Source of the DNA: Methylovulum sp.
GTDB taxonomy: Bacteria; Pseudomonadota; Gammaproteobacteria; Methylococcales; Methylomonadaceae
Reading direction: 5' to 3'
NCBI RefSeq assembly: GCF_028687615.1
Contig: NZ_JAQTZU010000018.1
Coordinates: 1-64,000, forward strand
DNA: 64,000 bases
Below are positions 16,600 to 44,398 of the stretch, piece after piece (the first letter of the stretch is position 1; the number at the start of each line of letters is the position of its first letter). Position numbers and translations under genes: made by a program. The notes under the pieces were generated by a model, which saw only the letters and a list, made by a program, of their open reading frames with translations, was not told where the DNA came from and ran no database searches.

Positions 16600-17559
16600 A
16601 TGCAAATCGTACTCGCAAACCCCCGTGGATTCTGTGCTGGCGTAGACCGCGCCATTGAAATCGTCGACCAAGCCATCGAAGCGTTCGGCGCACCGATTTA
16701 TGTCCGCCATGAGGTTGTGCATAACCGCACTGTCGTTGATGGCCTAAAAGAAAAAGGCGCGATTTTTATTGAAGACCTGACCGATGTGCCAGTCGGTTCG
16801 TATTTGATATTCAGTGCCCACGGTGTTTCCAAACAAGTGCAGCAAGAAGCCAAAGAACGCAATCTGACCATTTTTGACGCCACCTGCCCGCTGGTCACCA
16901 AAGTGCACTTGCAGGTCGCCAAACATGCCAAATCTGACCGCGAAGTGATTCTGATCGGTCACGCCGGACATCCCGAAGTGGAAGGCACGATGGGCCAATA
17001 CGAAAAATGCACCGAAAATGGCGGCATTTATTTAGTCGAAACGCCGGAAGATGTCGTGAACCTGCACGTCAACAATCCCGACAATCTGGCTTATGTCACC
17101 CAAACCACCTTGTCGATGACTGATACGCAAATTATGGTCGATGCCTTACGCACCCGTTTTTCGTCCATCCAGGACCAGAAAAAAGACGATATTTGCTACG
17201 CCACGCAAAACCGCCAGGATGCCGTGCATGAATTGGCAAAATCTGCCGATACGATTTTAGTCGTCGGTTCGCCCAACAGTTCCAACTCCAACCGTTTGCG
17301 CGAAATCGCCGAACAATTGGGCAAACCCGCCTATTTGATCGACACAGCCAAAGACATGCAGCAAGATTGGTTTGAGGGAATAAATGTCGTCGGCGTCACC
17401 GCTGGCGCATCCGCGCCCGAAGTATTGGTGCAAGAAGTGATCAATCAATTGAAACAATGGGGCGGGCAATCGACGATTGAAATCCAAGGCATTGAAGAAA
17501 AAGTTGTTTTCTCCTTACCCAAAGGCCTGAAAAAAGCCAGTGAACAAGCCAACGCCTGA
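16600..17559 (+). CDS. ispH: 4-hydroxy-3-methylbut-2-enyl diphosphate reductase
   Basis: IspH makes IPP and DMAPP in the last step of the MEP isoprenoid pathway using a [4Fe-4S] cluster. The 319-residue protein has the three cluster cysteines: Cys12 in [12 protein letters not shown], one in [11 protein letters not shown] (about 96) and one in [10 protein letters not shown] (about 197). The substrate motifs [14 protein letters not shown] and [11 protein letters not shown] are present. Start and length are typical. The hslR start codon overlaps the last 20 bases, so the two are probably coupled. Confidence 0.97.
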
Positions 17560-17944
17560 ATTGGATGCTGTCCGGCTAGATAAATGGCTGTGGGCGGCGC
17601 GGTTTTTCAAGACCCGCTCGCTCGCCGCCGAAGCTATCAGCGGCGGCAAAGTCCACGTCAACAAACAACGCGTCAAATCCGGTAAAGAAATCAAGGTCGG
17701 GGCGCAATTGTCCATCAGCAAAGACCAACTGCGCTGGGAAATCACTGTCATTGCCCTGACCACGCAACGCCGCGCCGCCAAAGACGCGGCGCTGCTCTAC
17801 GAAGAATCCCCCGAAAGCCACGCGGCGCGGCAGTTGCAAATCATCCAACAACGCGAACAGCGGGAATTTATGGCGCACAATGGCATAGACCATAAGCCGA
17901 ATAAAAAGGAACGGCGGTTGATCCATCGGTTTAAGGAAGGTTAG
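17540..17944 (+). CDS. hslR: S4-domain RNA-binding heat-shock protein Hsp15
   Basis: A 134-residue basic protein with an N-terminal S4 domain ([31 protein letters not shown]) and a Lys/Arg-rich tail. Hsp15 binds stalled 50S subunits carrying nascent chains and helps recycle them. The start is GTG at 17540 inside the end of ispH; the first in-frame residues ([12 protein letters not shown]) then lead directly into the S4 domain. In many relatives hslR lies by hslO; here ispH is its partner. Confidence 0.92.
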
Positions 17945-18118
17945 GCCAGCGATTTTTAAGATGATGACATGAATCCACAATAGGCCAATACCGCCCCTTG
18001 AGCGGGTCGGGATTCCTACGCTACCGTTTTCAGGTTTCCCTTCTGCCACAGCAACATCGAAAAACGCAGGGAAAAAGTGACGGCGTAACATCAGGTTTCA
18101 ACACATTTGGCCTTGACT

Positions 18119-18709
18119 CTACGCCGGCCCATTTTCCCCATCGGTCAAAACCTTATCGTAAACTTCGCGCAAACTAAGCACACAATCTATGCTTTCCAGC
18201 GATAAATCCGCATCCAGTCCCAACGCTTCGGATAAAACCCAAGCCCCACCTTGGCGCACATAGCGTTCAATAGCTGGCTGATCCTGCATCACCAAGAGAT
18301 ACTCACGCAAGCTGGGGATTTTACGGTAATGGGCAAATTTGCCGCCCCTGTCATAAGCCTCCGTGGAAGGCGACAAGACCTCAACCAACAGCGTAGGGTT
18401 GAGCAAAGTGTCCACATGGGCATCTTCAAATTCCGGCTTCCCGCACACAACCGCAATGTCAGGATAATGGTAACTGCGGGCTTCTGCCGCCTTGACCCGC
18501 ATATCGTTGACGTAAGCTTCGCAGGGGCGTTTTTTGAGTTGTTGGCTTAGTTCCCGGTAAATATTTCCTAAAACCAGATTATGCTCCCGGCTCGCGCCAG
18601 TCATGGCATAAATCTGACCGTCATGGAATTCGCTTTTAGACGAGGTGCCACGTTCCATTTTTAAATAGTCTTTGGCGGTAATGAGGGGTTGTTTGAGTAT
18701 GGCAGACAT
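18119..18709 (-). CDS. Uma2-family (DUF820) restriction-endonuclease-like protein
   Basis: A 196-residue protein of the Uma2/DUF820 family, which has a PD-(D/E)XK nuclease-like fold. The characteristic parts are YPDIAVVCGKPEF (the Asp of the active site), LLVEVLSPSTEAYDRGGKFAHYR (E-x-L...K) and EYLLVMQDQPAIERY. The family is expanded in cyanobacteria and some mobile-rich proteobacteria, and its biological role is unsettled. It stands alone with no methylase or partner beside it. The start ATG at 18709 precedes MSAILKQPLITAKDYLKME, a normal family N-terminus. Confidence 0.85.
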   Translation of the reverse strand: MSAILKQPLITAKDYLKMERGTSSKSEFHDGQIYAMTGASREHNLVLGNIYRELSQQLKKRPCEAYVNDMRVKAAEARSYHYPDIAVVCGKPEFEDAHVDTLLNPTLLVEVLSPSTEAYDRGGKFAHYRKIPSLREYLLVMQDQPAIERYVRQGGAWVLSEALGLDADLSLESIDCVLSLREVYDKVLTDGENGPA

Positions 18710-19084
18710 TAGACGCCTCGATAAAGCGTAATTTGTTAAAAGCCAAGCATATCATAGCGTTTAGCCACATCAATCCCAACTTTTAATAGGGTTTAAATAA
18801 TAAGCCAAGCGGGCATTCTCGAAATGTCGCCAAATCCGCTTTATCACTTCCAGGTTTTAAAAACTGACGGCGAGCCTAAGACCTAATATGTGTGTTGGGT
18901 TGCCAAACCGCAGGCAGGCAAGCCAACCTACCGAGCGGGACGGGGTTTTGCAACCCCGTCCTTGATTTTTTGAAGTGCCTTCAATCAATTGAAACGTTAT
19001 GGAACAGGTCGCCTAATGCGTCTACTGTTGGAACAAACCCGTTCCATCCGCAGTGCTAGGGCCTCTACTTGTATTATCGGTTTG
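18710..19084. other. Intergenic region with a strong GC hairpin
   Basis: No gene is visible. GACGGGGTT at 18939-18947 pairs with AACCCCGTC at 18952-18960 around TTGC and is followed by TTGATTTTTT on the plus strand. No plus-strand gene lies just upstream, so it may be a repeat or the end of an unannotated transcript. Confidence 0.45.
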
Positions 19085-19417
19085 CTACAAACAAGTCGGT
19101 GGCTTAGCTAAGCCCGCCAATTTGCAGGTATATTTCAGAGGCCCGTCAGGAAACAGCTTCAACAAATAGCGGCTATTGCCCTTGTCTTCCCCTAGCGTTT
19201 TGGCTATGGCTTTGGCAAACACCCGCGCGTTTGGCAGATGTTTATATTGCTGGTAATAATGGCGCATAAATCCAATTAGTTCCCAATGGGCATCGGTCAG
19301 TTGGATATGCTCCACCTCGGCTAGGGCAAGCGCGACCTGTTCATTCCAATCGGCCAGATTGACCAAGAAACCTTGTTCGGTGGTTGCCAAGGCCATGCCA
19401 TCAACCATCAAGACCAT
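19085..19417 (-). CDS. DsrC/TusE-family sulfur carrier with both C-terminal cysteines
   Basis: A 110-residue protein of the DsrC/TusE/RspA family, which carries sulfur as a per- or trisulfide on a mobile C-terminal arm. The family motifs are TEQGFLVNLADWNEQVA, HWELIGFMRHYY and GNSRYLLKLFPDGPLKY. The C-terminus TCKLAGLAKPPTCL holds two Cys, the penultimate one and one eleven residues before it. That is the pattern of true DsrC; the tRNA-thiolation protein TusE keeps only the penultimate Cys. The start could also be the ATG at 19408, which overlaps the stop of the upstream gene as TGATG. It is the last gene of a minus-strand operon with a DsrH-like protein and an SMR protein. Confidence 0.85.
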   Translation of the reverse strand: MVLMVDGMALATTEQGFLVNLADWNEQVALALAEVEHIQLTDAHWELIGFMRHYYQQYKHLPNARVFAKAIAKTLGEDKGNSRYLLKLFPDGPLKYTCKLAGLAKPPTCL

Positions 19418-19698
19418 GATTGGATTGCCGTGTTTTTGACCGTCAAGGCGACTAGCCCCGCATAGTCCAGCACCGTCAAACCCGCCGCCAATCTCTCTTC
19501 GGCGATGCCACGCACTTTCAACTCATCGACCAGAGCAAACAATTGGCAGGATTGTGCCAATAATTCCAGATGTTCCGCCCAGCGGCTGTTTTTTAACAAG
19601 CCCAGCACGGCACTATCGAGGAATACCACGTCATCACCAGCGGTAACGCGCTCCAGCACCGCACACTCCAAGGGCGATTGGAAAATCAGGTGCAACAT
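19408..19698 (-). CDS. DsrH/TusB-family sulfur-relay protein
   Basis: A 96-residue protein beginning [18 protein letters not shown] and ending VLDYAGLVALTVKNTAIQSW, the start and end patterns of DsrH/TusB. The family forms a hexamer with DsrE/TusD and DsrF/TusC that passes sulfur to DsrC/TusE. The ATG at 19698 overlaps the stop of the SMR gene by one base, and its TGA overlaps an ATG of the dsrC-like gene, so all three are coupled. No DsrE or DsrF gene is adjacent. An upstream extension of the frame by 24 codons is possible but lacks family similarity. Confidence 0.8.
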   Translation of the reverse strand: MLHLIFQSPLECAVLERVTAGDDVVFLDSAVLGLLKNSRWAEHLELLAQSCQLFALVDELKVRGIAEERLAAGLTVLDYAGLVALTVKNTAIQSWS

Positions 19699-20018
19699 TA
19701 GGCGGTGTCCGTCAATTTCAAACCGATAATACCGGCGATGACCAATACAATGGACAATATCCGCAGCCAATCCGCCGATTCTTTAAACACCAAAATCCCT
19801 ACAATCGCCACACCGACCGCGCCTATCCCTGTCCATACCGCGTAGGCCGTGCCTATCGGTAAGGTTTTGATCGCGACCGTCAGTAAATAAAAACTGACCG
19901 CACCAGAGCCGGCAGTCAATAGACTAGGCCAAAGCTTAGTAAAACCTTCGTTATATTTAAGGCTGATCGCAAACACAATCTCCACCCATCCAGCCAAAAG
20001 CAGCAACAACCACGCCAC
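19698..20018 (-). CDS. Small multidrug resistance (SMR/Gdx-EmrE type) transporter
   Basis: A 106-residue membrane protein with four hydrophobic helices and the SMR signature: [25 protein letters not shown], with the essential membrane Glu at about position 12, then [17 protein letters not shown] and [13 protein letters not shown]. It would exchange cationic compounds or guanidinium for protons as an antiparallel dimer. I place the start at GTG 20018, which gives the usual MAWLLLL N-terminus and has AAGGGAT upstream. A TTG at 20036 is an alternative. Its position at the head of a DsrH-DsrC operon is unusual. Confidence 0.85.
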
Positions 20019-20144
20019 AGCAACATCCCTTATCAAAAAAATTAGTGGTTATTTTACCTCAGTAGCATAGCCTTTGGACGATGGCTTTGTCGTTTCAGGC
20101 GGCTTTTCGCGGTTATAACCATTTTCCGCACAATGCCTATCCAT

Positions 20145-20582
20145 TCAAAAACGTAGCGGTGTAACTTGGCCCGTCGTCAGATAATATTGATAATCCGCCA
20201 ACACCAGGGCATGGTCGAACGCCAATTCGCTGGTCAAATTATCAAAAGTAAAAATAGCGCAATTTTTGGCATCATCCGCCGCTTTTGGCATTCCTTTGGC
20301 TTCTGCGATATAAACGGCGGTCACGGTATGATTGCGGGCATCGCGTTTAGGATCAGAATATAAGCCCAGTAAAACCTTGAGTGTGACATCCAGGCAAACT
20401 TCTTCCTGCGCTTCACGAATCGCAGTCTGTTCAATGGTTTCGCCAACATCGGCAAAACCGCCCGGCAATGCCCAGCCATACGGCGGATTTGCCCGTTCTA
20501 TCAACACAAAAGGGCGGTTTGGCAGGTCAACCAGCTCAATGATAATATCGGCGGCCAATAGTGGTGTGACAGGATTGTGCAT
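20145..20582 (-). CDS. NUDIX hydrolase
   Basis: A 145-residue NUDIX protein with the full Nudix box: GGFADVGETIEQTAIREAQE followed by EV, the conserved G-x5-E-x7-REUxEE-x-G/D pattern. It probably hydrolyses a nucleoside diphosphate derivative; NPVTPLLAADIIIEL and PPYGWALPGG suggest an ADP-ribose-pyrophosphatase-like branch. ATG 20582 (MHNPVTPLL) is chosen over an upstream extension to 20684 because the extra N-terminus is Cys/Arg-rich and unlike the family. It stands alone. Confidence 0.88.
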   Translation of the reverse strand: MHNPVTPLLAADIIIELVDLPNRPFVLIERANPPYGWALPGGFADVGETIEQTAIREAQEEVCLDVTLKVLLGLYSDPKRDARNHTVTAVYIAEAKGMPKAADDAKNCAIFTFDNLTSELAFDHALVLADYQYYLTTGQVTPLRF

Positions 20583-20815
20583 AGGGTTCCTAGGAAAGTA
20601 GCGGTTAAACGGGCGATTGTAACCTTTACCAAGCACAAAGGTAAAACAACTGCCTGCACACTTAAAAGGACATGTTGGCGTCATTTTGTGCCACCAGTGC
20701 CACTAAAATAGGGGCGGTTGAATTTCGACAGTTTTTCAATAGGGTACGGCTTTATAACTTTATAAACTGGAACGGCTCCTGCAATCCCTGCAGGGATGGC
20801 AAGAACCACTGCCCC

Positions 20816-20835
20816 AAAAAGCCCTGTCAGGCTTT
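20816..20835 (-). terminator. Probable terminator of alaC
   Basis: On the minus strand the sequence AAAGCCTGACAGGGCTTTTT forms a 6-bp stem followed by a T-run, 30 bases after the alaC stop. Confidence 0.55.
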
Positions 20836-20864
20836 AATTCCGTCGTATGATCCTAGCGGGAAGC

Positions 20865-22049
20865 TTACACCACTTGATCCTTTTTCATCATCATGCGGAT
20901 GCCGCGTATCGCCTGGCGGGTGCGGTGTTCGTTTTCTATCAGGCCGAAACGGACATGGTCATCGCCGTACTGGCCAAAACCTATGCCCGGCGCGACGGCG
21001 ACTTTGGCTTCCAGCAATAGTTTCTTGGAAAATTCCAACGAACCCATCGCTTGGTAGGCTTCAGGGATTTTCGCCCAGACAAACATCGTCGCCTTGGGTT
21101 TTTCCACGGGCCAGCCCGCCGCCGTCAGGCCATCACACAAGACATCGCGGCGTTTGCGGTACATTTCGGAAATTTCCGCGACACAGTCTTGCGGGCCTTC
21201 CAGTGCGGCAATCGCGGCGATTTGGATCGGCGTGAACGTGCCGTAATCCAGATACGATTTGATCCGCGCCAAGGCCGACACCAATTCCTTATTGCCGCAC
21301 ATGAAGCCGACGCGCCAGCCCGGCATATTGTAGCTTTTGGACATGGAGAAAAATTCCACGGCAATGTCCTTCGCGCCGTCGATTTGCAGGATGGATGGCG
21401 GCTTATAACCGTCAAAAGCAATATCGACATAGGCAATGTCATGCACGACCCAGATACTGTGTTCTTTCGCCAGGGCGATGATTTTCTCAAAAAAGTCCAG
21501 CTCCACGCATTGTGCGGTAGGATTGCCTGGGAAATTGATGATCAGCATTTTCGGCTTGGGCCAGCTATCAATAATGGCCTTGTGCAACTCGTCAAAAAAA
21601 TCCACGCCAGGGATCAGCGGCACATGGCGCAAGTCGGCTCCGGCAATCACCACGCCATAAGGATGTATCGGATACGCGGGATTAGGGACCAGCACGACAT
21701 CGCCAGGGCCTAGCGTCGCCAAGGCCAAATGCGCCAAGCCTTCTTTTGAGCCTATCGTGACAATGGCTTCGGTTTCTGGGTCTAAATCAACATCGAAGCG
21801 GGTTTTATACCAGTTACAAATCGCTTTGCGTAGGCGAGGGATGCCTTTGGACATCGAATAACGGTGCGTGTCTTCGCGTTGTGCCGCTTCTATCATCTTA
21901 TCGACGATGTGCTTAGGTGTCGGTTGGTCGGGGTTCCCCATACCAAAATCAATAATATCCTCGCCCGCCGCCCGCGCCTTGGCTTTCAGTTCGTTGACAA
22001 TGTTAAAAACGTAGGGGGGTAAGCGGCTTATTCTTTGAAATTGTTCCAT
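20865..22049 (-). CDS. alaC: Alanine transaminase (AlaC/YfdZ-type aminotransferase)
   Basis: A 394-residue PLP-dependent class I aminotransferase. The PLP lysine is Lys238 in [15 protein letters not shown]; other motifs are [25 protein letters not shown] and the C-terminal Arg region [24 protein letters not shown] near the start and the C-terminus match the AlaC group, which makes alanine from pyruvate and glutamate. The start ATG 22049 gives [18 protein letters not shown], the standard N-terminus. In many relatives homoserine dehydrogenase follows; here nothing does, and a terminator comes next. Confidence 0.93.
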
Positions 22050-22350
22050 GTACAGCTCTTGGGCGACCAGATGGCGGGTGAAGTTAAAAACTATCTAAAG
22101 TACTGTTATGGCATATATTTGTCAAATAATAGACACTTTAAGTTACGAGCCTCAAAATTTGGACACGGGCATTCAAAGACATTGTAGGCATACATCAAGC
22201 GCAATGCCATTTATATTATCCAACAACACAAGTTAATGAAAAGATTAGCAAACTGCGCTCATCGCCATTACCGGTATTGGTGATGGTAATGTCGATTTTG
22301 GGGGCGATGCCTGTGGATTTAAGGATGCACTGCCATTAAGTTAAGAAAAA

Positions 22351-22487
22351 CGGTAGTCCTGCAATCGGAATGATTTGTAAAAAGTCAAGCCTACCGATTT
22401 ATTGGGTCGAATGCCCGTACTTCAAGGCGTACAGTCATCGCAATATTTTATTGACAAATCTATTATCATTCCGATTGCAGGACTACC
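22351..22487 (+). mobile_element. MITE-like element E, copy 1
   Basis: Perfect 23-bp terminal inverted repeats (GGTAGTCCTGCAATCGGAAT... at 22351-22373 and its complement at 22465-22487) enclose about 90 bp. A nearly identical copy in opposite orientation is at 24038-24173. The copies enclose murI and the IS66-like fragment. Confidence 0.85.
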
Positions 22488-22540
22488 CATCTTTTGAAGG
22501 GATGTTATCGATTTTATGCCATCACCAAACAATCGAAATT
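22488..22540 (+). repeat. Repeat segment F, copy 1
   Basis: A 53-bp segment beginning CATCTTTTGAAGGGATGTTA follows element E directly. Its inverted copy lies at 24174-24227, next to the other E copy. The order of E and F differs between the two sites (E-F here, F-E when the other is read in the same orientation), so F is not simply an extension of E. Confidence 0.75.
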
Positions 22541-22652
22541 TAAACATCTATCAGTCCGCAGTGATTTTGGAGTAGGTTGGTGGCGGGCTTGCGAACTCCA
22601 ACATTTGTATTCGATGCGTTGGGGCGCGCAAACCCAGCACCAACCTAGCGCA

Positions 22653-23453
22653 TTACACAAGGCCTTGCACATTCACGCTTTCGCCCCATAGCCTTGAAAC
22701 AAGGGCATGGGCCTTATCAACCGCTCCGGTTGTATAAAAATGCTCTTGTGGCATACCAGCGGATGCGACATTTATGCAACCCATCAGTCGGCGTTCCAGT
22801 TGACGCGCCACTGCCGTTGATGGTTCGACTATGGTGATTTGATCGCCAACGAGTCTTCTAATTTGCGGCTCTAAAAACGGGTAATGGGTACAGCCTAGCA
22901 CCAGGGTGTCAGCACCTTCGGCTAACAAGGGGGCAATATAGCGCCCAAGAAGTTGACGCGTGAATTCTGTATCGGCTTCACCACGCTCGACTTGCTCCAC
23001 CAATCCTGGACAAGGTTGCAGAATAATACGGGTGTTTTCGCCATATAAGCGGCAAAGGTCAGCAACCGCCGGACTTTCTAGAGTTCTGCGTGTAGCAAGC
23101 ACTCCGATAATTTGCGATTTTGTGAGCCTGACAGCAGGCTTGATAGCGGGTTCCATCGCTATGATGGGAAGCCGATAAGTGGATCGAAGTTTCTCTATGG
23201 CAACCACGGTTGCCGTGTTACACGCGACAACAATAGCTTTGGCGTTAGACTCGACCAAAAACTGGGCTATCGCCAACGCCCTCCCTTCGATAAAACCGAC
23301 ATGGCGGTCTCCATAAGGGGCGTTGGCGGAATCGGCGACATAAAGCAAATGCTCTTGCGGCATCACTTTCCTAACCGCTTTGAGGACGGACAACCCACCC
23401 ACACCTGAATCGAAAACGCCTATGGGGGCTATTGATGACGGTTGCTTGGACAT
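22653..23453 (-). CDS. murI: Glutamate racemase
   Basis: MurI supplies D-glutamate for peptidoglycan. The 266-residue protein has the two catalytic cysteines in VVACNTATVVA and VLGCTHYPFL and the substrate motif GVFDSGVGGLSVLKAV near the N-terminus. Length and motif order are typical. The start ATG is at 23453. It is a single gene between repeat-rich spacers. Confidence 0.95.
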   Translation of the reverse strand: MSKQPSSIAPIGVFDSGVGGLSVLKAVRKVMPQEHLLYVADSANAPYGDRHVGFIEGRALAIAQFLVESNAKAIVVACNTATVVAIEKLRSTYRLPIIAMEPAIKPAVRLTKSQIIGVLATRRTLESPAVADLCRLYGENTRIILQPCPGLVEQVERGEADTEFTRQLLGRYIAPLLAEGADTLVLGCTHYPFLEPQIRRLVGDQITIVEPSTAVARQLERRLMGCINVASAGMPQEHFYTTGAVDKAHALVSRLWGESVNVQGLV

Positions 23454-23658
23454 TGATGGCTACAGACTTGACGTGTTTTTTTGTATAGCTTAACAGTACA
23501 CATAGCCTGTATGCGATAGCGGAATATAGGATTAAAGAATTACACTGATTCGATATACAGTAGACATTATCGAAATTAGCATCCGTCCTGAGTATATTCC
23601 AGTTGGGCAGGAAAATACTGTAAACCACAGGCGGTTTGTATAAACTTCAAACGGTCAC

Positions 23659-24037: not shown

Positions 24038-24173
24038 GGTAGTCCTGCAATCGGAATGATAATAGATTTGTCAATAAAATATTGCGATGACTGTACGCCT
24101 TGAAGTACGGGCATTCGACCCAATAAATCGGTAGGCTTGACTTTTTACAAATCATTCCGATTGCAGGACTACC
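24038..24173 (-). mobile_element. MITE-like element E, copy 2 (inverted)
   Basis: Same 23-bp ends (24038-24060 and 24151-24173) and the same interior as 22351-22487, but inverted. It interrupts the IS66-like fragment, so it either inserted there or is a shared derivative of that insertion sequence. Confidence 0.85.
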
Positions 24174-43553: not shown

Positions 43554-44387
43554 ATGACAGCACAAGAAGTACGCACACATGCAATTGACATCAATTCAGT
43601 TTTGAATAACCGTGCAAAACACAGCGAAACAAATGAGATCAGCATTAAAGTAGAAAACTTAAATCTTTTTTACGGTGACAAACAGGCTTTGCATGCTATC
43701 AACATGGAAATGTCCAAGAAAAAAGTGACTGCTTATATCGGTCCCAGCGGCTGTGGGAAATCAACTTTATTGCGCTGTATCAACCGTATGAATGACTTGG
43801 TTGATAACGTCACAATTGACGGCAAGATTTTGCTGGATAACGAAAATATTTTTGATAAAAGTGTCAATGTAGCGGCCTTGCGTAGACGGGTAGGCATGGT
43901 ATTCCAAAAGCCCAATCCGTTTCCTAAGTCCATTTTTGAAAATGTAGCTTATGGGCTAAGGATTCAAGGTATTAACGATAAGCGGATACTTGAGGAAACT
44001 GTCGAAAATGCTTTACGCGGTGCCGCTCTTTGGGATGAGATGAAAGACCGCTTGGATGATAATGCCTTAGGTATGTCGGGAGGTCAGCAACAGCGTTTGG
44101 TTATTGCCCGGGCCATTGCGATTGAACCTGAAGTTTTATTGTTGGACGAGCCGGCATCAGCGCTTGATCCGATTTCAACACTTAAAATTGAAGAGTTGAT
44201 TAACGAATTGAAAGAGAAATATACCATCGTCATTGTTACGCATAATATGCAGCAAGCCGCCCGTGTTTCTGATTATACGGCGTTTATGTACATGGGGGAG
44301 TTGGTCGAGATGGGCACAACCAGCGAGTTGTTCACCAATCCTAAAAAGAAACAAACTGAAGACTATATAACAGGCCGCTACGGTTAA
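43554..44387 (+). CDS. pstB: Phosphate ABC transporter ATPase
   Basis: A 277-residue ABC ATPase. Walker A is GPSGCGKS, the signature [14 protein letters not shown] and Walker [14 protein letters not shown]; the switch His lies in [28 protein letters not shown]. It powers PstCA phosphate import and, with PhoU and PhoR, takes part in Pho signalling. The N-terminal 30 residues are a slightly longer leader than usual. phoU follows. Confidence 0.96.
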
Positions 44388-44398
44388 ACAGGAGCTTA

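Follow-up and report, generated by a model that had tools for sequence, protein, structure and literature searches.

A conserved SMR-tusB-tusE gene unit in one family of methanotrophs, encoded apart from tusDC

Introduction

Why would the gene of an SMR-family exporter be tied to two genes of a sulfur relay? The question is raised by a 64,000-nucleotide stretch of a Methylovulum sp. contig (NZ_JAQTZU010000018.1, hereafter the window), in which genes for an SMR protein, a DsrH/TusB protein, and a DsrC/TusE protein are transcribed in this order (Table 1). An earlier note, made from the letters of the window alone, had named and placed these genes, and Pfam and NCBIfam matches bear out both the names and the coordinates. 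We report here that the three genes form a real and conserved unit, a variant of known parts that is specific to the window's family. The unit makes a lineage-wide link between an SMR exporter and tRNA thiolation open to testing, warns that a two-cysteine DsrC/TusE protein alone is no proof of dissimilatory sulfur metabolism in methanotroph genomes, and carries three invariant residues that flag a probable new SMR subtype.

The SMR-tusB-tusE order is conserved across the family

We examined an order-level sample of 121 genomes, including the window's genome (G000). The window's family (f1) accounts for 47 of them, and 46 of these yielded a locus with all three genes, counting one in G044 whose DsrH was missed by the Pfam DsrH model and is clear with the family model. 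SMR, DsrH, and DsrC stood in the same order on one strand at 46/46 loci from 15 genera, among them Methylomonas, Methylobacter, Methylomicrobium, and Methyloglobulus; the order is thus kept in related methanotrophs and is not confined to the window. Across the 36 f1 loci in which intergenic gaps were measured, DsrH and DsrC overlapped by 7 to 13 bases in every one, and the gap between SMR and DsrH ran from -1 to +20 bases in 35, with 510 bases in the other. In the window, the SMR stop codon and the DsrH ATG overlap by one base (TAATG), and the DsrH-DsrC overlap is 10 bases when DsrC is started at its first ATG (19417), the start used by most relatives. The tight coupling described in the earlier note therefore stands for TAATG and for the overlaps, and the TGATG junction that it also gave holds only with a second in-frame DsrC ATG, nine bases further on. 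Since each of the three genes runs into, or almost up to, the next, the SMR gene and the relay genes are linked at least at the level of expression.

The genes on either side were variable. Upstream neighbors of the triplet at the 46 loci fell into 13 clusters, the largest of which (27/46) lies on the opposite strand, and downstream neighbors fell into 15 (largest 19/46, next 14). A constant triplet between variable flanks shows that the order is not due to chance. By eye, the divergent upstream gene of the 27-locus cluster is PilZ/YcgR-like. Between G000 and its nearest relative, the ratio of nonsynonymous to synonymous substitution rates (dN/dS) was 0.06 to 0.12 for all three genes, a weak test at a dS of about 1. 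As judged from these substitution rates, TusB and TusE are under purifying selection; decay of the relay in the window's strain was considered and rejected, as the low ratios, within the limits of that test, give no sign of it.

The classical tusDCBE operon is split

For comparison we used 43 DsrH loci from outgroup families of the order; this set comprises top-scoring DsrH or DsrE matches, with some genomes represented twice, and is not a random sample. TusD or TusC was encoded in the locus at 43/43 of them and an SMR protein at 0/43. In f1, a DsrE-family match is present in 46/47 genomes, and TusC was found at 1/46 loci (L089, 1.6 kb away) in the sequence fetched around the triplet, mostly 4 to 5 kb of flank; in G048, a DsrE match lies about 7 kb from the triplet on the same contig. 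Because outgroup tusB follows tusD-tusC and f1 tusDC lies away from the triplet, the classical tusDCBE operon is split in f1, with tusDC encoded elsewhere. The earlier observation that DsrE and DsrF are not adjacent was correct, and neither was found anywhere in the window's assembly; as a trait of the family, "without DsrEF" fails, the genes having been separated and not lost. An S4-domain gene is convergent to tusE both in family f7, behind tusDCBE, and at many f1 loci, behind SMR-tusB-tusE. This shared neighbor suggests that tusBE probably remained in place while tusDC moved out and the SMR gene moved in. TusA and MnmA were found in 21/21 genomes, G000 among them, and TusA has two matches in G000. 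In genera g4 and g9 (L250 to L255) we noted an additional DsrH-like gene that stands alone, at a distance from the triplet, and whose product lacks the usual C-terminal Trp.

TusB lacks Cys20 and TusE keeps two cysteines

The window's TusB scored 59.7 bits against the TusB model TIGR03011 (cut-off, 49.2). It lacks the active-site Cys20 that characterizes DsrH of DsrEFH and that, in Allochromatium, is essential for sulfur oxidation in vivo (PMC3397948). No f1 row (0/46) has Cys in this alignment column, compared with 34/38 distinct outgroup rows, and a four-residue deletion precedes the column in the f1 rows inspected, the window's included. E. coli TusB (2d1p_C) also aligns without Cys at this position. 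The loss coincides with the operon split and the arrival of the SMR gene, yet one lineage amounts to one event.

The DsrC/TusE protein scored 135.7 bits with the family model TIGR03342 (cut-off, 53.5) and stayed below the TusE equivalog model NF008562 (104.4 bits; cut-off, 191). Both C-terminal cysteines, CysA and CysB, are in its C-terminal arm, as the earlier note had stated, and 43/46 f1 proteins have both; CysB is lost in the other three with the gene context unchanged. The name TusE goes with a single C-terminal cysteine, CysA only (compare PMC8190135). The window's protein departs from that pattern, which is not diagnostic in this order. Both cysteines occur in 19 distinct outgroup DsrC rows: 17 come from loci in which DsrH follows tusDC, and the other two from separate contigs; a further two rows, set aside by the search pattern for an extra last residue, also carry the pair. 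DsrC of family f7 has CysA only and likewise lies behind tusDCB. For Allochromatium, PMC3397948 reports that transfer from DsrE-Cys78 to DsrC requires just the penultimate Cys111. With two-cysteine proteins behind complete tusDCB, and a transfer that needs Cys111 alone, the second cysteine cannot separate DsrC from TusE here. The pair had been read in the earlier note as a mark against TusE, a reading that the 17 outgroup loci, the three losses of CysB, and the DsrA search do not support.

That search also bears on whether the protein might be a dissimilatory DsrC, acting with DsrAB or with a trisulfide-reducing complex. The cysteine pair would suit such a role, and the best match of the protein among solved structures, 1yx3, is named DsrC. 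However, DsrA exceeded its cut-off in 0/121 genomes, which leaves a role tied to DsrAB without a partner; the best match in G000 reached 43.3 of the 392.85 bits needed. The weak DsrA matches are short stretches inside long open frames and are probably other sirohaem reductases. The absence of Cys20 from 46/46 DsrH proteins and of CysB from three DsrC proteins argues in the same direction. On the missing DsrAB and the loss of Cys20 we rejected a dissimilatory role, which we regard as very unlikely. The genome-wide search proposed in the earlier note thus left DsrA under its cut-off and, on the side of DsrEF/TusCD, gave no DsrE-family match in G000.

The exporter is a probable new SMR subtype

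The SMR protein narrowly passed the SugE model NF008512 (127.3 bits; cut-off, 126) and aligned with Gdx-Clo (6wk5) from end to end without gaps (E = 1.6e-32). Across 26 aligned SMR rows, residues E13, S42, Y59, and W62 do not vary. F16, S19, and N23 are invariant in the same rows, and this F/S/N set is found at 46/46 f1 loci. Guanidinium exporters keep W16, which PMC7695847 places in the hydrogen-bond stack of the Gdx substrate site, in agreement with a review (PMC9574504); all 46 f1 proteins have F16 instead.

An SMR-alignment scan of named GTDB genomes confirmed 592 loci, of which we kept the best 80. Eight of these 80 have the F/S/N motif (Methylobacter, two Methylomonas, Methyloglobulus, Methylomicrobium, and three uncultured Methylococcales/Methylococcaceae), and DsrH-DsrC follows the SMR gene in 8/8; among the remaining 72, the full motif was found in 0/72 and a DsrH within the locus in 0/72. 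To judge by these names, f1 is probably the family Methylomonadaceae. In a class-level sample of 274 genomes, 28 SMR loci outside f1 were fetched, and BLAST over some 1.5 kb of flank per side, as far as the contig reaches, detected DsrH/DsrC in none. F16 alone is not unique to f1, as it occurred at 3/72 and 5/28 of these loci, respectively. The f1 proteins formed one clade in a quick tree of 151 rows, from which three damaged or partial class loci had been excluded, with a value of 95 in the Shimodaira-Hasegawa-like approximate likelihood ratio test (SH-aLRT). By their sequences, they are a probable new SMR subtype marked by the three invariant residues.

A guanidine riboswitch, common though not universal upstream of Gdx genes, had no Rfam match at window positions 17500 to 23500. 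Four other Rfam matches in that interval, all far under the gathering score, belong to RNA families of animals or plants. A second SMR gene, truncated and likewise of the F/S/N subtype, lies at L136:4075-4398 (contig 15 of G000, 44074-44397) and breaks off after residue 59; at 69% identity to the window's SMR it is not a recent copy. Beyond these two, no further SMR was found in G000 at E 1e-15. G008 has a single SMR.

A proposed role in tRNA thiolation, and why an exporter is there

The folds of SMR, TusB, and TusE are settled by the matches of their sequences to relatives of solved structure. From the gene order and its conservation, the overlaps, the sequence changes, the presence of TusA and MnmA, and the absence of DsrAB, we infer that tusB and tusE probably serve tRNA 2-thiolation via MnmA, split from TusD-TusC, behind an f1-specific SMR protein that putatively exports a small cation. 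Family knowledge suggests that sulfur would pass from a cysteine desulfurase to TusA, then to the TusD subunit of a TusBCD complex, with TusCD encoded at another site, and from TusD through CysA of TusE to MnmA and tRNA U34. The SMR protein would act as a proton-coupled small-cation exporter, descended from guanidinium exporters, altered at its substrate site, and co-expressed with tusB-tusE. The Tus relay has been described in E. coli, where MnmA and IscS are sufficient by themselves in vitro (PMC11784392).

The unit resembles three known systems in part. It shares with E. coli TusBCD-TusE the TusB and TusE families, TusA and MnmA in the genome, and a Cys20 position without Cys, but its TusE keeps CysB and its tusB-tusE stand apart from tusDC, behind an SMR gene. 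With DsrEFH-DsrC of Allochromatium vinosum it has in common a DsrH and a two-cysteine DsrC homologue; unlike that system, it has no DsrAB in the order, no adjacent DsrEF, and no Cys20 in DsrH. The full-length alignment with Gdx-Clo and the shared E13, S42, Y59, and W62 place the exporter near the Gdx/SugE proteins, from which it differs in F16, S19, and N23, in the riboswitch not found, and in its fixed tie to tusB-tusE.

Two explanations compete for why the exporter is there, and each is compatible with the relay itself. The SMR protein may be an ordinary exporter of guanidinium whose gene entered the tus operon in the f1 ancestor and has been kept there by shared ancestry and convenient co-expression, with no functional link. 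The SugE score just above its cut-off, the four retained residues, the gapless match to Gdx-Clo, and the occurrence of F16 by itself in other SMRs all fit this explanation; against it stand F16/S19/N23 in 46/46 proteins, the lack of a riboswitch match at the locus, and a triplet that stays together while its flanks reshuffle. We put this explanation at slightly below an even chance. Alternatively, exporter and relay could share chemistry. The SMR protein would then expel a small cation that the persulfide relay or its tRNA targets generate or are poisoned by; a guanidinium analogue that bears sulfur would be one example. An invariant triplet of overlapping genes, an altered SMR substrate site, and a TusB changed in the same lineage would accord with this idea; however, none of this is direct evidence of a substrate, operon partners may differ in chemistry, and searches of open-licence literature turned up no mention of the idea and no account of an SMR gene beside tusB-tusE. 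We consider shared chemistry unlikely and rate plain co-transcription above it. Similarly improbable, in our judgment, is the bolder version in which the f1 SMR protein is a new relay-bound subtype that exports a sulfur-related or guanidinium-like cation arising from, or poisoning, the TusE-MnmA step, with thiolation and export as one physiological unit. Of the relay-exporter link suggested in the earlier note, a lasting genetic link is thus confirmed at 46/46 loci, and the chemical link is doubtful.

Several observations weigh against a thiolation relay of TusB and TusE with an f1-specific exporter. TusC and TusD were not found in the G000 assembly, and the relay as drawn is therefore incomplete there. 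In the window's TusE, the AGLPKP stretch of the C-terminal arm has a Pro-to-Ala change that is unique among the 46. A two-cysteine DsrC can serve other partners, and our search covered DsrA, not DsrK/Hdr-type partners. The SMR clade comes from a quick tree with few columns (106). One f1 genome, G076, lacks tusB and tusE. This genome, of the same genus as G000 and 99% complete in 30 contigs, has three DsrE-family matches with DsrH and DsrC not found, the mirror case of G000.

Missing TusCD in the window's genome

G000 is the sole genome without a DsrE-family match among the 121 of the order and among 20 of the genus. We asked whether this reflects a gap in the assembly or a true loss, with TusB and TusE retained for another use. 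The size and completeness of the assembly (3.49 Mb; 99.96%) speak for loss. So does the absence of bepA (named by eye), a neighbor of tusDC in G069 and in two close relatives, G028 and G106; in G000 the best bepA matches were 33% paralogues. No bepA or tusDC fragment was present on the 96 contig ends fetched (of 112). However, 78 of these 96 ends finish in sequence common to another end, and the smallest of the 56 contigs has 3893 bases, so a bepA-tusDC block of less than 3 kb between repeats may have dropped out of the assembly. Purifying selection on TusB and TusE and the DsrE-family genes in 19/19 other genomes of the genus also argue against loss. The surroundings of tusDC differ among five sister genomes, and synteny therefore gave no decision; as a hint only, one contig end of G000 lies about 370 bases beyond glyA, which is about 7 kb from tusDC in G069. 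We conclude that an assembly gap is quite probable and that true loss is the rather unlikely alternative.

Layout of the locus and minor features

The features of the locus are listed in Table 1. The GTG start of the SMR gene matches the start in its nearest relatives, and the NUDIX hydrolase gene likewise precedes the triplet in L057, the nearest relative. A Uma2-family gene separates tusE from the S4-domain gene in the window; in many relatives these two adjoin. A scan for promoters and terminators gave terminators at chance level and eight promoter-like sites (3.4 expected), none of which stood out.

Table 1. Genes of the SMR-tusB-tusE locus and their neighbors in the window
Feature	Coordinates	Strand	Remarks
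Gdx/SugE-like SMR-family exporter (putative)	19698-20018	minus	GTG start at 20018; 106 aa; Pfam SMR 1.1e-27
DsrH/TusB	19408-19698	minus	96 aa; Pfam DsrH 1.9e-16
DsrC/TusE	19085-19417	minus	110 aa; Pfam DsrC 3.5e-39
NUDIX hydrolase	20145-20582	minus	Upstream of SMR, 126-base gap; outside conserved core
S4-domain protein	17540-17944	plus	Convergent with tusE; adjoins tusE in 19/46 f1 loci
Uma2-family gene	18119-18709		Between tusE and the S4-domain gene

Further along the window, inverted copies of a 136-base repeat (22352-22487 and 24038-24173) flank a murI-like gene. Each copy is 99% identical to a stretch of contig 15, and the element is probably a mobile repeat.
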